From IMG/VR virus record IMGVR_UViG_3300042868_009837, positions 1 to 23,901 of that record: a stretch of DNA of 23,901 bases; one strand, written 5' to 3'. The notes beneath the pieces were generated by a model. It saw only the letters and a list, made by a program, of their open reading frames with translations, was not told where the DNA came from and did no database searches. This document shows, piece by piece, positions 13,864-23,667 of the stretch. The first letter of the stretch is position 1, and each line of letters begins with the position of its first letter. The DNA is from a virus. The position numbers and the translations under genes were made by a program.

Positions 13864-14790
13864 ATGAGTAAGTTATCAATCATTCAAAATCTTGAGTCAG
13901 TTCTTGGCAAGAGTAAAACATCTACTAAAGATAACTTAGCATTTACATGTCCATTTTGTCATCATCATAAGCCTAAATTAGAAGTTGATATAACTACACA
14001 ACATTGGCATTGTTGGGTTTGTAATGCATCTGGTCGTAAGATTTCTGTATTGTATAGGAAACTTAATGTTGCTAGAGAAAAGATTTCGCAAATCATTACT
14101 TTATTAGATGATGTAGAATATAAACCTACAAAAACAACTACCGATACTCCTGTAGTTAATTTGCCTAGCGATTATCGTCCTCTATGGCGTATAGATAAAG
14201 CTTCGCCGGATTATAGAAATGCTATTACATATCTTAAAAATCGCGGTATTGGTATTTACGATATTTTACGCTATCGAATTGGATATTGTGAGACTGGCGA
14301 GTACTCCGGAAAGATTATTATTCCGAGTTTCGATGCTAATGGTAGTTTAAACTATTTCGTAGCTCGAGCATTTTATGAATCAGATAATTTTAAACATAAG
14401 AATCCAAAAGTATCAAAAGATATTATTGGGTTTGAACTACATATAAACTGGGAATTACCGATTGTATTGGTAGAAGGAGCATTTGATGCTATAGCAATCA
14501 AACGCAATGCTATACCATTATTTGGTAAAACAATTTCCAATACATTAAAAAAGCGTATTGTTCAGAGGAGAGTTAAAACAATTTATATTTGTTTAGATCA
14601 AGATGCTAGGAAACAAGCATTAGAAGCTGCTGAATATTTTATGAGTAATGGTATCGATGTTTATTTTGTAGATATAACAGGTAAAGATCCTAGTGACTTG
14701 GGTTTCGAAGCAGTAAAGAATTTAATAGATACAACCGTACAATTAACTGGTGAACGGTTAATGGAAGAAAAGATATTATGCATACTATAG
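13864..14790 (+). CDS. gp61: DNA primase, zinc-finger plus TOPRIM (T4 gp61 / DnaG type)
   Basis: A 308-aa primase of the phage single-domain kind (T4 gp61 is 342 aa), without a fused helicase. Residues 29-53 hold a zinc-binding motif: Cys29-x2-Cys32 and Cys50-x2-Cys53, with His33-35 close by and the family-typical HWHCWVC context. The catalytic TOPRIM core follows: VEGAFDA at 203-209 (Glu204) and CLDQDA at 243-248 with the Asp245-x-Asp247 pair that binds metal. GKIIIPSFDANGSLNYFVAR (149-168) matches the strand region before TOPRIM in DnaG proteins. It makes RNA primers for the lagging strand, working with a hexameric helicase not seen in this window. The ATG is preceded by a poor, A-rich Shine-Dalgarno (AAGTAATAATA). 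It overlaps the next gene by 13 nt, so the two are co-expressed. Confidence 0.85.
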   Translation: MSKLSIIQNLESVLGKSKTSTKDNLAFTCPFCHHHKPKLEVDITTQHWHCWVCNASGRKISVLYRKLNVAREKISQIITLLDDVEYKPTKTTTDTPVVNLPSDYRPLWRIDKASPDYRNAITYLKNRGIGIYDILRYRIGYCETGEYSGKIIIPSFDANGSLNYFVARAFYESDNFKHKNPKVSKDIIGFELHINWELPIVLVEGAFDAIAIKRNAIPLFGKTISNTLKKRIVQRRVKTIYICLDQDARKQALEAAEYFMSNGIDVYFVDITGKDPSDLGFEAVKNLIDTTVQLTGERLMEEKILCIL

Positions 14791-17700
14791 ATATTGGAAT
14801 TTCTAAGATAGATAAAATCTATCACATTGCAGACGTGCATGTACGTAACGTTAAACGCCATAAAGAATACGAACAAGTATTTAAGCGTCTGTATAAATAC
14901 ATTAAAAAAACAAAGACACCTGGTAGTATTATTTATGTAGCAGGTGATATCGTGCATGCTAAGACAGATATGTCCCCTGAATTAGTACATACTGTATCAG
15001 AGTTCTTTAAGAATCTAGCAGATTTAGCACCGACGATAGTTATTACGGGAAACCATGATTGCAATCTAAATAACTCGAGTCGTTTAGATGCCTTATCTCC
15101 TATTGTTAAAGCCTTAAATCATCCGCAATTACACTATCTTAAAGACACAGGTATATATAGTATATCGAACATACACTTTAACGTTATGTCGGTGTTTGAT
15201 CCGCCATCAAAATTTATTAAAGCTAGCGAATTTGAAGGTGAATATAAAATAGCACTACACCACGGTGCGGTTAATGCAGCTCAAACTGATTTAGGTATTA
15301 CATTAAGTAATACACATGTAACGGCTGATACATTTAAAGGTCATGACTTAACATTGTTAGGTGATATACACAAACCTCAATTCTTAAATTCAGCTAAAAC
15401 TATCGCATATGCCGGAAGTTTAATTCAACAGAATTTCGGTGAAGGTTTAGATCATGGTATAATGGTATGGGACTTAGATTCTAGATCTTGTGAATTTGTT
15501 GAAATTGAAAATGATTTTGGATACTGTACATTAGAAATTAGTAACGGCAATATTGTTACTGATATCAAACGAATGCCTAAAAAGGTTAGACTTCGTTTAA
15601 AGGTTAAGGATACTGATTCAGCTACGCTAAAACGTATTGTATCAGATTTAAAATCACAATATACTATACAAGATGTCACTATACAGAAAGTCAATCCTTT
15701 CAATTCAATTTCCAATGGTAAGAAAATATCATTTGGTAATGTTCGTGATGTAGAGTGGCAGAATAAAGTAATAACTGAATATCTAGATAATGAATATGCA
15801 TTGGATGATGAAATGCTAGATGTAGTTCGACATATTAATCGTACGGTACATAGCAAATTAACGCAATCCGACATAACTAGAAATAAATTATGGATTCCGA
15901 AAATATTTGAGTTTTCAAACATGTTTAGTTACGGCGAAGACAATTTAATTGACTTTGGTAACTTAGCTGGTTCATATGGTTTATTTGCTCCTAACGCTTC
16001 GGGTAAATCAACATTACTAGATGCATTGGCATTTTGTTGTTTTGATAAATGTAGTCGTACTAGTAAAGCCGTGCATGTATTGAATAATAAAAAGACACAA
16101 TTTAGATCTAAGTTTCAATTTGAAATGGACGGCATTGATTATTATATTGAACGTAACGGACGTAAAAATAATGGCGGACATGTTAAGGTAGATGTAGAAT
16201 TTTATTACTTTGATGATACTGGTACTAAAGTATCACTTAACGGCGAACAGCGCGATAACACAAATAAAATGATACGTCATTATTTAGGTGATTACGAAGA
16301 TTTTGTTTTAACAGCATTATCACTTCAAGGTAATAATACCGGCTTTATTGATATGTCACAAAAGGATCGAAAGGATTTGCTTAGTCAATTCTTAGACATT
16401 AATGTTTTTGAACAACAATATCAAATAGCTGCTGATGACAGTAGAGATACATCGGCGCTAATACGTGAGTATAAGCGTATCGATCATAGTACGGATCTAG
16501 CTACTGCTGAACAAACAATTGTTACTGTTTCTAAAGCATATAAAAGTAGATTGACGGAAAAAGAAACTTTAGAAAAGTTACGTGATGAATTAAATGAACA
16601 GGTACTTGATTTAACTAAAGAATTACGTACTATACCAGATAATATATCAGACCCTAAAAGTCATGAAACTAAAATAGCACAATTATTTGAAGCTAAAAAA
16701 GTTGGCCAACAACAATTGGATGTGGCACAGCAACGTATGAATGAAGCCGATGATATATACTTTAACTTGAAGTTACGTATTGACGATGTTAAGATCGATA
16801 TATTAAAACAAACGGCTGACGAACATAGACAATATTTAAAGACACTGTCAGATCTTAAGACAGAAATGCATGGAAAACAGCACGCAATAGAGCATGCTGA
16901 AAAAATGGTTTCTAAATTAGAAGAACATAAATGGGATGCAAATTGTGAGTATTGCATGGCTAATCCATGGCTTCACGATACTAAATTAGCTGCTGATCAG
17001 TTACCGAGTTTACGTAGAGAGATGGAAGCATATGAGTTTCAAGTATCGCAATTATTGTTAGCTATTGATGATACAGATGTTCAAAAATCAATTGATGATT
17101 ATCATCGATTAGTATCAGAATTAAATACAGCGTCTGTTATACGTAGTCAATCATCTGATACATTTAATGGGTACTTTACTAAATTACAAAGTACTATCGA
17201 TGCATATCACCAAGAGGTATTATTACTAACAAAGGCTATGGAATGTATCGCTGATATTGAATTTAATAAACAGCGTACGGAAGAAATAAATGAATTGCGC
17301 GATGAAATTAGTTCAATGACGCAAGAAATAAAAACTATAGATACGGAGGTTATTCAATTATCGGCTAAACTATCTGTAGCAGAGAAAACAAAACAAACAG
17401 CATTAAATGCTATAGAAAGATTGCGAGACCTAGAAGTACAATATAAAGGCTATGAATATTATTTGCAATCCATTAAACGTGATGGAGTGCCATATCAGTT
17501 AATAGAACGCGCGTTACCGCAAATTGAAGCTGAGGTCAATAATATTTTAACGCAAGTTGTTGACTTTACGATTATTCTAAACACCGACGGCAAAAATATA
17601 CATGGATATATTGTTTATGATGATACTAACTATTGGCCTTTAGAATTAACATCCGGAATGGAAAAATTTATTTCTTCCTTAGCTATTAGAGCATCATTAA

Positions 17701-17924
17701 TCAATGTTACTAGTTTACCTAGACCGAACTTCTTAGCAATTGACGAAGGCTTTGGCGTATTGGATTCTGATAATATGAATAGTATGTATATGCTGTTTGA
17801 TTATCTTAAGTCTCAATTCGGTTTCATTATGTGTATATCACATATCGATGCCATGCGAGACATTGTAGATAAACTAATCGAAATCAAAAAAGAACATGGC
17901 TATTCTAAAATAAACTACTCTTGA
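14778..17924 (+). CDS. gp47-gp46: Fused Mre11/SbcD nuclease-Rad50/SbcC ATPase (gp47-gp46 fusion)
   Basis: One uninterrupted 1048-aa frame contains both subunits of the recombination nuclease. Mre11-type phosphoesterase motifs occupy the first 230 residues: ADVH (18-21), GDIVH (56-60), GNHD (91-94), HHG (161-163) and GDIHK (195-199). The Rad50 part starts near 372: Walker A APNASGKS (404-411, Ala in place of the first Gly), then a long heptad-like helical region (about 575-890) broken by the zinc hook Cys723-x2-Cys726 (NCEYCM). The ATPase is completed by the signature LTSGMEKF (957-964, Met for Gly), Walker B FLAIDEGFGVLD (985-996) and His1022 in CISHI. T4 makes these as separate proteins of 339 and 560 aa, which resect DNA ends for recombination-dependent replication. 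The start overlaps the primase end by 13 nt, with GGAAG upstream inside primase. Confidence 0.9.
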   Translation: MHTIDIGISKIDKIYHIADVHVRNVKRHKEYEQVFKRLYKYIKKTKTPGSIIYVAGDIVHAKTDMSPELVHTVSEFFKNLADLAPTIVITGNHDCNLNNSSRLDALSPIVKALNHPQLHYLKDTGIYSISNIHFNVMSVFDPPSKFIKASEFEGEYKIALHHGAVNAAQTDLGITLSNTHVTADTFKGHDLTLLGDIHKPQFLNSAKTIAYAGSLIQQNFGEGLDHGIMVWDLDSRSCEFVEIENDFGYCTLEISNGNIVTDIKRMPKKVRLRLKVKDTDSATLKRIVSDLKSQYTIQDVTIQKVNPFNSISNGKKISFGNVRDVEWQNKVITEYLDNEYALDDEMLDVVRHINRTVHSKLTQSDITRNKLWIPKIFEFSNMFSYGEDNLIDFGNLAGSYGLFAPNASGKSTLLDALAFCCFDKCSRTSKAVHVLNNKKTQFRSKFQFEMDGIDYYIERNGRKNNGGHVKVDVEFYYFDDTGTKVSLNGEQRDNTNKMIRHYLGDYEDFVLTALSLQGNNTGFIDMSQKDRKDLLSQFLDINVFEQQYQIAADDSRDTSALIREYKRIDHSTDLATAEQTIVTVSKAYKSRLTEKETLEKLRDELNEQVLDLTKELRTIPDNISDPKSHETKIAQLFEAKKVGQQQLDVAQQRMNEADDIYFNLKLRIDDVKIDILKQTADEHRQYLKTLSDLKTEMHGKQHAIEHAEKMVSKLEEHKWDANCEYCMANPWLHDTKLAADQLPSLRREMEAYEFQVSQLLLAIDDTDVQKSIDDYHRLVSELNTASVIRSQSSDTFNGYFTKLQSTIDAYHQEVLLLTKAMECIADIEFNKQRTEEINELRDEISSMTQEIKTIDTEVIQLSAKLSVAEKTKQTALNAIERLRDLEVQYKGYEYYLQSIKRDGVPYQLIERALPQIEAEVNNILTQVVDFTIILNTDGKNIHGYIVYDDTNYWPLELTSGMEKFISSLAIRASLINVTSLPRPNFLAIDEGFGVLDSDNMNSMYMLFDYLKSQFGFIMCISHIDAMRDIVDKLIEIKKEHGYSKINYS

Positions 17925-17949: not shown

Positions 17950-20900
17950 ATGCCGTTACGTAAAAGAGTAGGCTATGTTGGTTTAAAGGATTTTCAATAC
18001 GCTATTCGTGATTCAGATGCAATATCTCGTGATTACTTTAACATCGTAGAATTTCCAAACCGCCTAACGGCCGGAAAGAATTTATTTAAGCTTAAAGCTC
18101 AGGCCGGTAATCTCGTAGATCAAAGTGAAATCTACATAGAAATTTTAGACTATAACGGCAATCCAATTTATTACGAACCTATCAATTATATTGAAAAGGA
18201 TGGTACTCGAGTTATTGCCGTTTACATTTATCCAGATACTTCTCCTGGTATAGCAACTGTATATCTAGCTTCTAGAGCACGCGTTAATGTAAATACCGGA
18301 GCGTTGATACCATATAGTCGCGACGTTAATGCCGAAAACTATTATAACATACCAAATTTAATTTGGCAACGTACTGTTACAGTAGCCCCTAGAGCTCGTA
18401 ACAATTCAGAAATTATATTTACTCAATATCCGCGCATTACATTATCAGAAGTAATACAGCCATACCAACAACCGTTAGATATCTTTAACGTAATTACAAC
18501 TGTATCCGCATCGGGAGCATCATTAACGATTACGCCATTACCATTAGTACCAGTAGGAACTACTAACACAGTTAGTGTGACACAAGGATCTGGTACTAGT
18601 AATACGCCGAATTTCGGATTACAGTTTTTCGATATTGGTACATTACAAAATTCATTAAGTAGTACTAATAATACATCGGCTGATGCGCCGCCTCTATATA
18701 CTTTAAGTGGAGCTAGTAAACTTACGACAGTTGGTTTTCCATTAAATGCTAATATGGTAGGTGGTTATATAGAAATACGTAAACCTAACATTACATTGGC
18801 CGGTACAAGTGATAATAATGGTAATGCTCCACAATTTAAAACACAGAATGGGGAAGTTTATCCGGAGTCACAGGATGGTGATTTTGGTAACTTCTATGGT
18901 ATATCTGTACCTGGGGCTGTAGTGCCACTAAGTGGTTCGTATCGTTTTGCTATTACGCAAGTAATTAGTAGTACACAGGCGCGTGTAGCACAATACTACG
19001 GTTTTCGTAATGATGATGATAATACGTTTGGACCATTTAATGTACGTCTTGTCATGCAACAAGGATTATCATCAAATATACAAACAATAAATACATCAAC
19101 AAACTTTACTGCTAGTTATACACAACCAGTTATAACAGTACAAACACAACGTAGTTCTAGTTTTGCTGATTTAATACTAGCTAATATAGAACCGGCGACT
19201 GGCGACATATACAAAATCAAAACATTATACAAGCCATCCGGATTTTTTGGAGATTTTATTGATCTAGGAGATACTATCTTAGAACAACAAAATATTTTAG
19301 TCGATACGGGTTCGGTAGAAACAAATATTGCTATCGGTGTAGCATATGAAGCATATGGAGCATTTGAAAACTTAGCTGAAATAGAGCAATATTGGACTAC
19401 TAGTAGTTATTCTCCATATGATCCGGCATTTAATGTTTGGGCGCCGTTTTCATATGATGATACTATATTAATTGGCGGCGCTAAGCTAAACTTAGATTTT
19501 AGTGATTTAGGTACTGGCATTGGCCCACAACAATATTTAGTAACTAATGAGTATGCTAGTTTTTCAATTAAATCACAGTATCAACCTACTGTAACAGCTG
19601 ATACGGAATATGTAGTACGTTTTAGTATAGCCAGCGATTCAGATGCCGCGGATATCTTTAGCCAAGATACAAATATACCAAATCATCGTTTAGATGTATA
19701 CATTTCCGGCTCGCGTGTACAAACACAAGAACAATTCCGTTTTGCACAGGCTGGGGATATATTGCCGGTGCCTAACTTTAATAATACTACAACAGGCGAT
19801 TTTAGAGACGGTGGGCCATTAGGTAATCGAATCGGTACATATCAGGTTAAACCAATAGCAGGAGCTATTAGTCAAGTAGAATTTAGATTTAAAGCTTTAG
19901 AAACAGCTCCGGTTGATTTAAAATTAGTTGTAAGAAATGGTCATTTTATTGTAGGTAATATAGAATTTCTAGCAAATAAAGAAACTGGATTTTCACCTAA
20001 CTATACACGTATTTTTAAACGTGTGCCATCTGAACACTATAATACGCCGTTAACATTTAAGTTTCAATACTTTGATTATACGGGTCAACAAGCAGATTTG
20101 GAAAGTATAGTGTATGGAGCTATATTTGATGGAGATAATACATATATTCAAGGTACGAATAACTTAATTACAGGTTCGATTTTTATTAGTAATGAAATTG
20201 GTACTGGTTTAGAAATAGCCGGAACTAATTCTGGACACATACGTAGTGCTGGATTCCTAGGCATGACTAAAGCCATTGCCGGTACCGGTAGTGCTGCTGG
20301 TATACTGTTTTATTCGGGTTCCATTTTAAAAGGCCAAACTTCGGAGTTTGTTGGGGGTGGGGTTGGATTTCAAATAGCAGCAGCTACAGATAAATACATG
20401 CGCGTTAATTCCAATACCGACGACTTTACAATTAAAACACCGGGCTTTACGTTTGCTTCTAAGAAAGGCGATGAAACTATAGCTTCAATCAGTGGTTCGT
20501 TTAATATAAGTGGTAGTGTATATATCGATAGTGGTAGTTTGTATATAAATAAAAACAGACAATTTAATTACAGTGGATTTTCAGACACTACCGACCAAAC
20601 TGTCGCGGCCGGCGTTTCTGCATCATTTACATATAATACTAGTGATACAACAGGTAGTGTAACTTTAGTTAGTAATTCTAGATTAACGGTACCGTCGACG
20701 GGTATATACAATATACAATTTTCTGTACAGTTATTTGCTACATCTGGAGCAGATACGATTTATATATGGATTAAGAAAAACGGAACGAATATTCCAAACT
20801 CTGCTAGTTCTATATATTTACGTAATAACGAACAACAAATATCTGCGTGGAATTGGTTATTAGCAATGAATGCCAATGACTATGTAGAAATTGTTTGGCA

Positions 20901-20997
20901 AACACTTAATGGTAATGCTAGGCTAGAACACTTCATCGCTTCGGGTAATGTTCCAGCTATTCCTAGTGTCATCGTAACCGTAACACAAGTAGCATAA
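17950..20997 (+). CDS. Fibre-like structural protein with C1q/TNF-like C-terminal head
   Basis: A 1015-aa protein with its own candidate late promoter and the clear ribosome site GAGGAAG. The N-terminal 150 residues are beta-rich (LFKLKAQAGN, IYIEILDYNGNPIYYEPINY, TVYLASRARV) and resemble in style the first domain of the 1464-aa tail protein. The middle is long and Ser/Thr/Asn-rich, probably beta-structured, with Gly-rich IAGTGSAAGILFYSGS near 775-790 and short Ser-Gly repeats (SGSFNISGSVYIDSGSLYI) just before the tip. Residues about 867-1015 match the C1q/TNF-like trimeric jelly roll seen at the ends of phage fibres: FSDTTDQTVAAGVSASFTY, VPSTGIYNIQFSVQL, IYIWIKKNGTNI and NDYVEIVWQ. I infer a trimeric tail or neck fibre with a receptor-binding or knob-like tip. 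No chaperone gene is obvious next to it. Confidence 0.7.
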   Translation: MPLRKRVGYVGLKDFQYAIRDSDAISRDYFNIVEFPNRLTAGKNLFKLKAQAGNLVDQSEIYIEILDYNGNPIYYEPINYIEKDGTRVIAVYIYPDTSPGIATVYLASRARVNVNTGALIPYSRDVNAENYYNIPNLIWQRTVTVAPRARNNSEIIFTQYPRITLSEVIQPYQQPLDIFNVITTVSASGASLTITPLPLVPVGTTNTVSVTQGSGTSNTPNFGLQFFDIGTLQNSLSSTNNTSADAPPLYTLSGASKLTTVGFPLNANMVGGYIEIRKPNITLAGTSDNNGNAPQFKTQNGEVYPESQDGDFGNFYGISVPGAVVPLSGSYRFAITQVISSTQARVAQYYGFRNDDDNTFGPFNVRLVMQQGLSSNIQTINTSTNFTASYTQPVITVQTQRSSSFADLILANIEPATGDIYKIKTLYKPSGFFGDFIDLGDTILEQQNILVDTGSVETNIAIGVAYEAYGAFENLAEIEQYWTTSSYSPYDPAFNVWAPFSYDDTILIGGAKLNLDFSDLGTGIGPQQYLVTNEYASFSIKSQYQPTVTADTEYVVRFSIASDSDAADIFSQDTNIPNHRLDVYISGSRVQTQEQFRFAQAGDILPVPNFNNTTTGDFRDGGPLGNRIGTYQVKPIAGAISQVEFRFKALETAPVDLKLVVRNGHFIVGNIEFLANKETGFSPNYTRIFKRVPSEHYNTPLTFKFQYFDYTGQQADLESIVYGAIFDGDNTYIQGTNNLITGSIFISNEIGTGLEIAGTNSGHIRSAGFLGMTKAIAGTGSAAGILFYSGSILKGQTSEFVGGGVGFQIAAATDKYMRVNSNTDDFTIKTPGFTFASKKGDETIASISGSFNISGSVYIDSGSLYINKNRQFNYSGFSDTTDQTVAAGVSASFTYNTSDTTGSVTLVSNSRLTVPSTGIYNIQFSVQLFATSGADTIYIWIKKNGTNIPNSASSIYLRNNEQQISAWNWLLAMNANDYVEIVWQTLNGNARLEHFIASGNVPAIPSVIVTVTQVA
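20353..20366 (+). other. G-run within the fibre gene
   Basis: GGGGGTGGGGTTGG at 20353-20366, with another GG at 20343-20344, is an unusual G-rich island in an otherwise AT-rich genome. It encodes VGGGVG using the rare codon GGG. Two-tier quadruplex folding is conceivable but not shown. Confidence 0.35.
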
Positions 20998-21022: not shown

Positions 21023-22687
21023 ATGAATTTAGGACAATGGTTAGTAGAACACATTATTACAGAAGATACTAATATCAAAAATATTATAGCTGTATACCCA
21101 GGACGTTTTCAGCCATTCGGACAACACCACGCTAAAGCATTCCGTTGGCTTCAAAAACAGTTCGGCACTAATAATACTTATATAGCAACGAGTGATAAAA
21201 CAGAGCCTAAAAAGTCACCTTTTAATTTTAACGAAAAAAAGCAGATCATTAATCAATACGGCATAAAAAATGTAGTACAGGTTAAGAATCCATATAAAGC
21301 CGAAGAAATATTAGGACAGTATGATCCAGCAACTACTACAGTAGTATTTATGGTTGGTCAGAAAGACATGGAAGAAGATCCTAGATTTAAAATTGGTTTT
21401 AAAAAGGATGGGTCAAATTCATACTTTCAAGATTATGCTAAGCATAAAGACAATATGGAAGGCTTTGATAAACATGGATATTTGATTGTAGCTCCCCATA
21501 TATCATTAAACGTTCCAGGCTACGGAGAAATGTCTGGTACAGCACTGCGTAACGTACTTAAAACAGGCGACGATGAAACATATAAGGACGTATTAGGTTG
21601 GTACGATCCAAAAACAATAACAATGATGAAAAATAAATTATCAGAAGCACTTATAATGGAAGGTGGTGCCGGCGGTCATATGGCGCATCCATTTGATTTA
21701 CCATGGGTAAAGACCGGTAAAGATTTAGTTAAAGCATTTGCTATGGCAGGTGAGTATTTAAAGAAAGGCCCAGCATCAGTTAAGATTGACGGTATTAATG
21801 CTAGTATACGTTTAATTACATATGATGGTAAGAAGAAACAATTTGTAATGGACCGAGGCTCTAATAAACCATTAGACGTACAAGGTATTACCAAAGCTGA
21901 CTTGTTAGACCGTTTCGGTGAAGGCCATGGTATGATTGTTATTGGTGGTAAGGTATTAGATATATTCAATGAAGCTTTACCTGATATAACCAAACAACTC
22001 AAACAACTTGGTATGTGGGACAACCCGAACATTTTATTCAATATAGAGTATGTTGCGGGGTCGTCTAACGTTCTATCATATGATAAGAATTTCTTAGCTA
22101 TACACGGACTCTTAGAAATTGAACAAGTAACTCCTAAACGTCGTGCTACAAAAGAAATATCGTATAATGAAAATGTAATACAACAGGTATTAGATAATAT
22201 GGCTCCGACGGCACAAAAGTACGGCTATCAAGTTGTAGGATCTATTCCAACAACATTAGATAAAGATCCAGACTTTGCAGGTGAGTTAAATAAGAAATAT
22301 ACCGTTATAGTTAATGGCGAAAAGGTAACTAAGTCATTGAGTCAATGGTTAGCAAAAGCTCGTAATGAACGTGATACTGAAATTAAATTAGCTGACGGTA
22401 AAAAGGTAGGAGCACAAAGTAAACAAATACTTTTAGCGATTGCTGATAAAAAAGATGTAGCAGAACTAGTAGCTGAACCGGCAGATGTCGAAAAAGCTAT
22501 TAATGGATTTGTTATGTATTTAGCTACAATGGAACTAGGCAATGCAGTATTGGAAGCATTAAGTTCAGACCTAGGTCCAGTAAAAGACCAAGAAGGTATT
22601 GTGATACGCGATCCAAAAATTAGCGATAAGCCGTTTAAAATTACTGGACGATTTATTGTTAAAGGACTAGAGTCACAGTTTAAATAA
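21023..22687 (+). CDS. Cytidylyltransferase/NMNAT-like domain fused to ligase-type covalent nucleotidyltransferase
   Basis: A 554-aa two-domain enzyme. Residues about 20-205 look like the HxGH nucleotidyltransferase fold: GRFQPFGQHH at 27-36 corresponds to the GxFxPxHxGH motif but reads G-Q-H-H, so the first His is Gly, while MSGTALR at 170-176 matches the conserved ISxTxxR motif. This superfamily transfers nucleotidyl groups (NMN adenylyltransferase, cytidylyltransferases). Residues about 250-554 carry the signatures of covalent nucleotidyltransferases (DNA/RNA ligases, capping enzymes): Lys254-Ile-Asp-Gly257 (motif I, lysine-AMP site) with Arg263, FNIEY at 339-343 (motif III), EGIVIR at 524-529 (motif IV), and Lys539/Lys547 as candidate motif V. 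An insertion or accessory region lies near 370-515. The linker is NKLSEALIMEGGAGGHMAHP. Likely roles are RNA/DNA end sealing or nucleotide-cofactor chemistry; substrate unknown. Confidence 0.72.
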   Translation: MNLGQWLVEHIITEDTNIKNIIAVYPGRFQPFGQHHAKAFRWLQKQFGTNNTYIATSDKTEPKKSPFNFNEKKQIINQYGIKNVVQVKNPYKAEEILGQYDPATTTVVFMVGQKDMEEDPRFKIGFKKDGSNSYFQDYAKHKDNMEGFDKHGYLIVAPHISLNVPGYGEMSGTALRNVLKTGDDETYKDVLGWYDPKTITMMKNKLSEALIMEGGAGGHMAHPFDLPWVKTGKDLVKAFAMAGEYLKKGPASVKIDGINASIRLITYDGKKKQFVMDRGSNKPLDVQGITKADLLDRFGEGHGMIVIGGKVLDIFNEALPDITKQLKQLGMWDNPNILFNIEYVAGSSNVLSYDKNFLAIHGLLEIEQVTPKRRATKEISYNENVIQQVLDNMAPTAQKYGYQVVGSIPTTLDKDPDFAGELNKKYTVIVNGEKVTKSLSQWLAKARNERDTEIKLADGKKVGAQSKQILLAIADKKDVAELVAEPADVEKAINGFVMYLATMELGNAVLEALSSDLGPVKDQEGIVIRDPKISDKPFKITGRFIVKGLESQFK

Positions 22688-22720: not shown

Positions 22721-23050
22721 ATGAAGTCAACTGAATTACGTAATCTTATACGTGAAGAAATTAAAAAAGCTTTATCAGAAGCAGGCGCGGATATGTCTTT
22801 CTTAGATAAAGTAGGCGGTTCAATCCGTTCTAAATTAGGTACTGGTAAGACACAACTTAATCGTGCATTGGATATGATCGATACTGAACGTTTGAGTAAA
22901 TTGCCTGTTGCACAAAAGATTGATTTGATGGTAGCACTAATGGACCGTGTTGGTATCGATGCTAAATCATTTAATCAGGTTAAGGCACGTGTAGCTAAAG
23001 AGTTAGGTGCTGGAGCTACTATGGAATCGAAACAGCCTAAAAAGAAATAA
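22721..23050 (+). CDS. Small basic-tailed helical protein, possible capsid internal protein
   Basis: A 109-aa protein of no recognised family. It starts behind a strong ribosome site (AAGGA) and a candidate late promoter. Residues 1-20 form a charged amphipathic helix, STELRNLIREEIKKALSE, immediately followed by Ala. The sequence L-S-E-A fits the short T4 prohead-protease consensus (Leu/Ile-x-Glu, then Ala/Gly/Ser), and T4 internal proteins carry similar short N-terminal capsid-targeting helices. The body is helical (MIDTERLSKLPVAQKIDLMV) and the C-terminus is lysine-rich (SKQPKKK), suitable for DNA contact. Late expression and this layout make a packaged internal protein a reasonable inference, but the consensus is short and could match by chance. 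The next gene starts 2 nt after the stop. Confidence 0.5.
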   Translation: MKSTELRNLIREEIKKALSEAGADMSFLDKVGGSIRSKLGTGKTQLNRALDMIDTERLSKLPVAQKIDLMVALMDRVGIDAKSFNQVKARVAKELGAGATMESKQPKKK

Positions 23051-23052
23051 GT

Positions 23053-23667
23053 ATGTCAAACAAGTTACAGAATGTTAAAGCAGTAAAAGAACTACTTTCT
23101 GGCGCACATAAAAGCCAAAGTAGAAAAACTGTTGGTTATATGAAAGGCGCCGAAGTTAAACGCAATGTAGGCGATACATGGACGGAGTTAGATCCTACGA
23201 CCGGTACGGTATGGAAGATCGAACAAAAGAACGGCTTTCGTACGCGAACTGTAGAAAATAGTATCTTACAAAAGATACGCGATATATTAACAGTGCCAAA
23301 GGAATGTTCATGTTGTGGTAAAGAAATGCGAGACGAGGAAAAACATTTAAACTTTAAAATGTACTTTATACATAAAAAATGTTTTTCGTGTGTTACGCAA
23401 GAAGAAACTTTGATTAGAGCTAATGGTAAAGAAGCTTGGGAAGAATATTCTCGTCAGCGTATGTTAGCCAATGCCGAATCATGGTTACGTGATGCTGATC
23501 GTGAAGTAGCTTTACTGCGCGAAGCTCTTAAAGTACAGTTCGTGCAAAATGCGGATGGTGGCTTAGAAGAATGGGATCAATCAGCATTCTTTGAAAAATT
23601 TGATGCTGATTACAAACAAACGCGAGAAACAATTCTAAATAACTTGAAAGGAACAACGAATGGCTAG
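23053..23667 (+). CDS. Hypothetical Cys/His zinc-binding-type protein
   Basis: A 204-aa protein of unknown function starting 2 nt after the previous stop with no strong Shine-Dalgarno, so translation is likely coupled. Residues about 36-66 hold a small Trp-rich beta segment (GDTWTELDPTTGTVWKIEQK). Residues 85-113 form a candidate zinc site: Cys85, Cys88 (CSCCGKEM), His107, Cys110 and Cys113 (HKKCFSC), the spacing of a treble-clef or zinc-ribbon-like finger. The rest is helical and charged (about 118-200), probably coiled-coil (WLRDADREVALLREALKV). It might bind nucleic acid or a partner protein, but no family is recognised. Its last 8 bases overlap the next gene. Confidence 0.6.
   Translation: MSNKLQNVKAVKELLSGAHKSQSRKTVGYMKGAEVKRNVGDTWTELDPTTGTVWKIEQKNGFRTRTVENSILQKIRDILTVPKECSCCGKEMRDEEKHLNFKMYFIHKKCFSCVTQEETLIRANGKEAWEEYSRQRMLANAESWLRDADREVALLREALKVQFVQNADGGLEEWDQSAFFEKFDADYKQTRETILNNLKGTTNG

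Follow-up and report, generated by a model that had tools for sequence, protein, structure and literature searches.

Why should a phage place two nucleotidyltransferases of different chemistry in one reading frame? The frame in question encodes 554 amino acids and lies in the window, the whole 23,901-nucleotide stretch of viral DNA analysed here. The window is a 23.9-kb tailed-phage fragment with baseplate wedge, endonuclease, primase and SbcD/SbcC genes; no gp21-type protease or capsid gene was found in it. The original prediction had proposed a coupled cofactor cycle, with RNA repair or end capping as alternatives. We favour a different reading, to which we assign a probability of roughly 60%: a head-packaged polyprotein that is split by protease and delivers an adenylyltransferase and an RNA-ligase-like enzyme.

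Two nucleotidyltransferase folds in one chain

The two domains and their motifs are as follows.

21023..22687, plus strand: polyprotein reading frame, NMNAT-fold domain followed by RNA-ligase-fold domain (AF2 models, structure comparison)
21077..21646, plus strand: NMNAT/PPAT-type (HxGH superfamily) adenylyltransferase domain, residues 19-208 (Pfam, PHROG, NCBIfam, AF2 structure match)
21101..21130, plus strand: nucleotide-binding motif GRFQPFGQHH, residues 27-36, GxHH replacing HxGH
21530..21550, plus strand: second NMNAT motif MSGTALR, residues 170-176, Arg176 conserved
21662..22684, plus strand: RNA-ligase-fold (covalent nucleotidyltransferase) domain, residues 214-554, predicted mature N-terminus GGAGGHMAHPFD
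21782..21793, plus strand: ligase motif I KIDG, residues 254-257, catalytic Lys254 (275/275 relatives)
22037..22051, plus strand: ligase motif III FNIEY, residues 339-343, Glu342
22592..22609, plus strand: ligase motif IV EGIVIR, residues 524-529, Glu524
22637..22663, plus strand: ligase motif V KITGRFIVK, residues 539-547, Lys539

A position check placed every motif quoted in the original prediction at the residues listed. A two-domain AF2 model built from 74 relatives had a mean pLDDT of 91.9, falling below 50 only at residues 3-13 and 210-217, and its residues 19-210 matched NadD, archaeal NMNAT and PPAT structures with Z scores up to 11.7, bearing out the NMNAT/cytidylyltransferase fold proposed for the N-terminal half. 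This half alone is matched by Pfam CTP_transf_like (E 6e-4, narrowly under the curated threshold) and by the PHROG 395 cytidyltransferase model (E 1e-7); the ligase half lies outside the 'cytidyltransferase' models PHROG 395 and 3041. In those relatives that carry HxGH, the best family match of the domain is archaeal NMNAT (NCBIfam PRK01153, E 2e-7). With archaeal-type NMNAT (NadM) and PPAT the domain shares the fold and the GRFQP and SGTxxR motifs, and several family clades have HxGH; the window's clade differs in its GxHH, and the family in lacking an accompanying Nudix or NadV and in an additional conserved KD...R...YFQ segment, an insert on the acceptor side. Invariant residues include the last His of the nucleotide-binding motif and the Arg of SGTxxR.

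Among the marks of the HxGH superfamily, the fold (Z 11.7) and SGTALR are present and the first His is replaced. The original prediction had correctly noted this His-to-Gly change in the window and had raised the possibility of a dead domain, which would then serve as a binding module. We consider that quite unlikely: GxHH is no one-off. In the NMNAT tree a single clade, with 26 representative rows and an SH-aLRT support of 90, conserves it, and the remaining clades have HxGH; this conservation makes decay improbable. A second His occupies the Gly position of the motif, and one member nested within this GPHH clade (L286:2029-2601) again reads HSGH, which suggests that HxGH and GxHH can interchange. 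GxHH thus looks like a histidine relocated under constraint, not decay. PPAT enzymes such as E. coli CoaD (TxGH) function without the first His, so its loss is compatible with activity.

The ligase half had to be folded alone, because a Foldseek search with the two-domain model listed matches almost solely to the N-terminal domain. Modelled by itself, this half reached a mean pLDDT of 93.9. Foldseek of the isolated half gave nothing significant (best ligase E 0.07), and structural re-alignment (VIA) found RNA/DNA ligases only among the 50 matches listed, in agreement with the ligase-type covalent nucleotidyltransferase fold originally proposed, which we assign to residues 218-554. The top match was T4 Rnl1 (5tt6; Z 9.4, 179 residues aligned, rmsd 3.8), and the Naegleria RNA ligase scored Z 8.0. 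The neighbours among the matches listed were RNA and ATP-type DNA ligases and, because many Z values lie below 8, the argument for a ligase fold depends on how uniform this list is, combined with the motifs. All 275 near-full-length relatives have KxDG and the motif III pattern, 273 of 275 have motif IV (EG[ILVF]V) and likewise 273 of 275 have motif V (Kx[TS]GxF); Lys254 and the motif IV/V residues, on whose retention in homologs the original prediction had staked its claim, are therefore kept. Throughout the family, motif V has Thr in place of the second Lys of the usual KxK, which may alter strand sealing. Given the predicted fold and the intact catalytic residues, enzyme-AMP formation by this domain is likely.

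Sequence comparison placed the ligase half in no family above cut-off in Pfam, PHROGs or NCBIfam, and a 46-row profile found no sequence match in the PDB. The isolated half scored E 0.08 against Pfam RNA_ligase; HHalign of the family profile aligned motif I alone with T4 Rnl2, at a non-significant score, and gave no significant alignment with T4 DNA ligase. Judged by its modelled structure, the half constitutes a ligase-fold family previously unrecognised by sequence libraries, whose likeness to the Rnl families is structural only. It shares its predicted fold and the order of motifs I, III, IV and V with the ATP-dependent RNA ligases (T4 Rnl1, Rnl2, Naegleria Rnl and Trl1), and its KxDG/EKTDGxN resembles the EKIHGTN of Rnl2. 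It differs from them in its GGxxGHMxHPFD N-terminus, its KxTGxF motif V and a large insert between motifs IIIa and IV, and has no significant sequence match to them.

A viral family with several domain orders

Searches of viral contigs recovered 44 relatives of the whole protein and, with the ligase as query, at least 516 and at least 593 confirmed relatives among the 600 candidates listed. Some loci overlap, one contig being fetchable by several searches, and counts refer to distinct sequences where so stated. Just two annotated phage records were matched by the whole protein, that of an isolate, Microcystis phage Mel-JY01 (homologue WWT39297), and that of an uncultured huge phage; the ligase search added a second huge phage. 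The family looks viral, because the whole-genome collection yielded just five contigs, all metagenome-assembled.

Four arrangements recur: the NMNAT-ligase fusion of the window, a ligase-NMNAT fusion (L028 group), adjacent separate genes (L035 group), and polyproteins of up to ~2000 residues with the two domains at opposite ends (L163 group). The domains are ~1000 residues apart in some relatives. One polyprotein clade carries a third enzyme upstream of both, a P-loop kinase (AAA_33/zeta-toxin-like, GIFKAVFLAGGPGSGKT), found in L224 (L224:2821-7059), L249, L227, L254 and ~23 more ORFs. NMNAT was not detected in several long ligase-bearing contigs (G006, 236 kb; G008; G016), so the pair is not obligatory; nor was it detected in L091, L100, L121 and L123, where the ligase begins MGGAAGHM without a leader. 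Some lineages thus appear to be ligase-only, and we read the pairing as strong and re-invented in several orders. DUF5661 also shares polypeptides with NMNAT-type domains (L138:1699-7227 and L085:8209-9120).

In the coupled cycle of the original prediction, NMN released by an NAD-dependent ligase would be turned back into NAD by the NMNAT domain of the same bifunctional enzyme; this would explain why both folds share a chain and why the pairing recurs. However, searches revealed neither an NAD-ligase family nor an Ia domain at E values up to 1 with the whole protein or up to 5 with the isolated half, only 40 residues precede Lys254 within the ligase domain, where LigA has its Ia NAD-binding domain, and RNA and ATP-type DNA ligases make up the listed structural neighbours. 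The order of the domains is not fixed, ligase-only lineages appear to exist, and the junctions described below look built for cutting. A single-enzyme cycle is not supported, because sites in the linkers would separate the domains. With domain order, spacing and junctions all speaking against it, we dropped this explanation as very improbable.

Protease-type junctions and the T4 head-protein parallel

Two short stretches flank the NMNAT domain of the window protein.

21023..21064, plus strand: N-terminal leader MNLGQWLVEHIITE (residues 1-14), modelled with low confidence and containing the (L/I)xE sites LVE9 and ITE14
21638..21661, plus strand: linker between the domains, LSEALIME (residues 206-213), where prohead-protease cleavage is predicted at LSE208 and IME213; GG follows

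An (L/I)xE-type site, the pattern of the T4 gp21 prohead protease, precedes each domain, and four of the five [LI]xE triplets in the protein fall inside these two disordered stretches. Across the family, the ligase has the conserved start GGxxGHMxHPFD, and 160 of 171 distinct junctions before it read [LIV]xE/GG (P3 is L in 98, I in 58 and V in 4; P2 is free); in eight further junctions Met directly precedes GG, the protein starting MGG. After clustering at 60% identity, [LI]xE stood exactly at the junction in 16 of 18 clusters (the 17th has V, the 18th starts MGG), compared with a background rate of 0.011 per position; none of the other offsets among the 18 showed anything similar. A smaller [LI]xE peak five residues upstream corresponds to doubled sites, such as LSEALIME in the window. 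The junction motif is present in NMNAT-ligase fusions (30/30), long polyproteins (56/57), ligase-NMNAT fusions (5/6) and split genes (12/12); sorted by what lies upstream, it follows NMNAT (30/30), the middle of a polyprotein (56/57) or an N-terminal leader (5/6 and 7/7). Because the motif holds whatever lies upstream, common ancestry of the upstream sequence cannot explain the junction. Where further sequence lies ahead of an NMNAT domain, [LIV]xE in most cases stands before that domain as well, and other NMNAT domains begin with Met there, a claim that rests on the unclustered list, as clustering at 60% identity leaves 7 rows, too few for statistics. The P-loop kinase junction, (I/L/V)xE/G, is of the same kind in 11 of 13 distinct sequences.

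The T4 protease gp21 recognises L/I-X-E and cleaves behind the Glu; among the sequences that it removes are the leaders of the internal proteins, 10-19 residues long, which target those proteins to the capsid (PMC9026906; also PMC9958956, PMC5694885). Read from the T4 genome, with cut positions placed by the published motif, these leaders are MKTYQEFIAE/A for IPII and IPIII, MKTFKEFTSTTTPVSTITE/A for IPI (MKTFKEF...ITE/A) and MAKINELLRE/S for gp24. Leaders of the present family resemble them (MITFEQFLVE/GG, MKTFKQYYNTILNE/GG and MKSFKQFIINE/GG), and that of the window, MNLGQWLVEHIITE/D, appears capsid-targeting-like by the same analogy. The machinery is at hand in related genomes: Peptidase_S77, the gp21-type protease, occurs in 25 of 33 relatives' records and a gp23-type capsid protein in 24 of 33, and most of the longer relatives, including the near relatives L003 and L009, have both. 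In the four capsid proteins of relatives that were read, L/I-x-E/A lies close to the expected maturation site. The gene family sits upstream of the large terminase, at a median of 1.4 kb in 210 loci. Together, the junctions, leaders, gp21/gp23 homologues and terminase setting point to head packaging and processing.

The likeness to T4 IPI-III and Alt extends to leader length and pattern, (L/I)xE junctions, a late packaging-gene setting and, in most of the longer relatives, gp21 and gp23 homologues. T4, however, packages Alt and each internal protein as its own gene product, whereas the cargo here would be two enzymes (three in one clade) in one chain with internal sites. Polyvalent proteins of the phage P1 DarB/DdrB type are, in the available passages of the survey describing them, likewise multi-enzyme and phage-head-associated, and some are proteolytically processed; their processing is ascribed there to built-in metallopeptidases, in contrast to the gp21-type prohead protease proposed here, and the NMNAT/ligase pair does not occur in those passages.

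Could the protein instead be a two-domain RNA-end repair enzyme of the cytoplasm, never packaged, with (L/I)xEGG belonging to the fold or serving as a flexible linker? Some members start MGG yet keep GG..GHM, and the kinase that joins in one clade is reminiscent of kinase-ligase RNA repair enzymes. We nonetheless regard this as doubtful, given that P3 and P1 are fixed and P2 free across unrelated upstream contexts, that the junction stretch is disordered in the models and that the leaders correspond to the capsid-targeting sequences of T4. In at least four lineages the protein has no leader and begins MGG; under the packaging model, packaging of the ligase may therefore not be universal, or may follow a different route there.

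Proposed function and neighbouring genes

We propose that the polyprotein is expressed late by a T4-like phage and that its short N-terminal leader would direct it to the prohead core. A gp21-type protease would then cut after (L/I)xE, taking off the leader after Glu14 and parting the domains after Glu208 and/or Glu213, to yield an adenylyltransferase of the NMNAT fold and a second enzyme, of the RNA-ligase fold, whose N-terminus is Gly-Gly. Like T4 Alt and the internal proteins, both would be enclosed in the head alongside the genome and enter the cell at infection. There, the ligase, working through an AMP adduct on Lys254, would have RNA ends as its target, and the adenylyltransferase would have NMN or a related 5'-phosphate; together the two might counter host damage to RNA and/or NAD. 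We infer cleavage, packaging and ejection by analogy with T4, from computed features: the folds, the ligase catalytic residues, the pairing in every order, the junction motif, the genomic setting and the presence of gp21 and gp23.

Substrates and purpose are the least certain part of this explanation. RNA repair, also raised by the original prediction, is possible and weakly favoured; as the purpose of the pair, we give RNA-end repair somewhat less than an even chance, and the same holds for some other role, such as RNA or nucleotide capping. The co-packaged P-loop kinase of one clade would suit 5'-end phosphorylation before ligation. NMN is the default guess for the adenylyltransferase substrate. 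It would be the actual one if the NMNAT rebuilt NAD after a host NADase defence, in the manner of phage NAD-reconstitution pathways, the ligase being an unrelated, co-packaged RNA repair enzyme, an explanation that we find unlikely. The NMNAT-type fold and its archaeal NMNAT family match fit NAD resupply, but the acceptor side differs by its conserved insert, and among 29 records of relatives, many of which are fragments, NadV/NAPRTase turned up in just two, one of the two having only a weak NMNAT match. This rarity contrasts with the rule, given in the available passages of one survey, that published phage NadM is always accompanied by NadV (PMC9503650).

On a wider and more tentative view, which we think might hold but would not bet on, a widespread group of uncultivated T4-like phages carries a virion-borne nucleic-acid/cofactor repair kit, a capsid-targeted polyprotein that joins an adenylyltransferase to a member of a new RNA-ligase family and, within one clade, to a P-loop kinase as well; the head-maturation protease would free the enzymes, which would disarm RNA- or NAD-targeting defences before phage gene expression. 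Processed head cargo of the T4 type is already known; what is new is the cargo itself and the unrecognised ligase family. The available passages of NAD/ADP-ribose, jumbo-phage and polyvalent-protein surveys (PMC9503650, PMC7824862, PMC5512222) do not mention the NMNAT/ligase pair. If the packaging model is right, hundreds of environmental viruses carry a new ligase family hitherto labelled merely 'cytidyltransferase', and the head-maturation protease of T4 is employed to split a multi-enzyme cargo. The pair would then be a concrete candidate for virion-delivered RNA- or NAD-directed counter-defence, and (L/I)xE/GG and similar motifs a simple signature for other ejected enzymes in T4-like phages.

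Two genes follow the polyprotein gene in the window.

22721..23050, plus strand: 109-aa protein 3' of the polyprotein gene, with a similar leader MKSTELRNLIREEIKKALSE, then a predicted cut, then AGADM
23053..23667, plus strand: Cys-rich conserved neighbour, 204 aa

From its leader and putative cleavage site (MKSTELRNLIREEIKKALSE/AGADM), the 109-aa protein is a possible further head-cargo precursor. The Cys-rich family (~210 aa) lies ~50 bp downstream of the ligase gene in most of 245 loci and is followed by the large terminase in 210; it has a weak PHROG endonuclease match (E 0.015). Elsewhere in the window, a single ORF at 14778-17924 fuses SbcD-like (residues 10-350) and SbcC-like (residues 346-1047) subunits, whereas the T4 counterparts, gp47 and gp46, are separate genes; similar ORFs of ~1050 aa are present in 32 relatives. 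Between this fusion and the polyprotein gene, 17950-20997 encodes a 1015-aa protein with no PHROG match, whose sequence resembles a tail or fibre structural protein.
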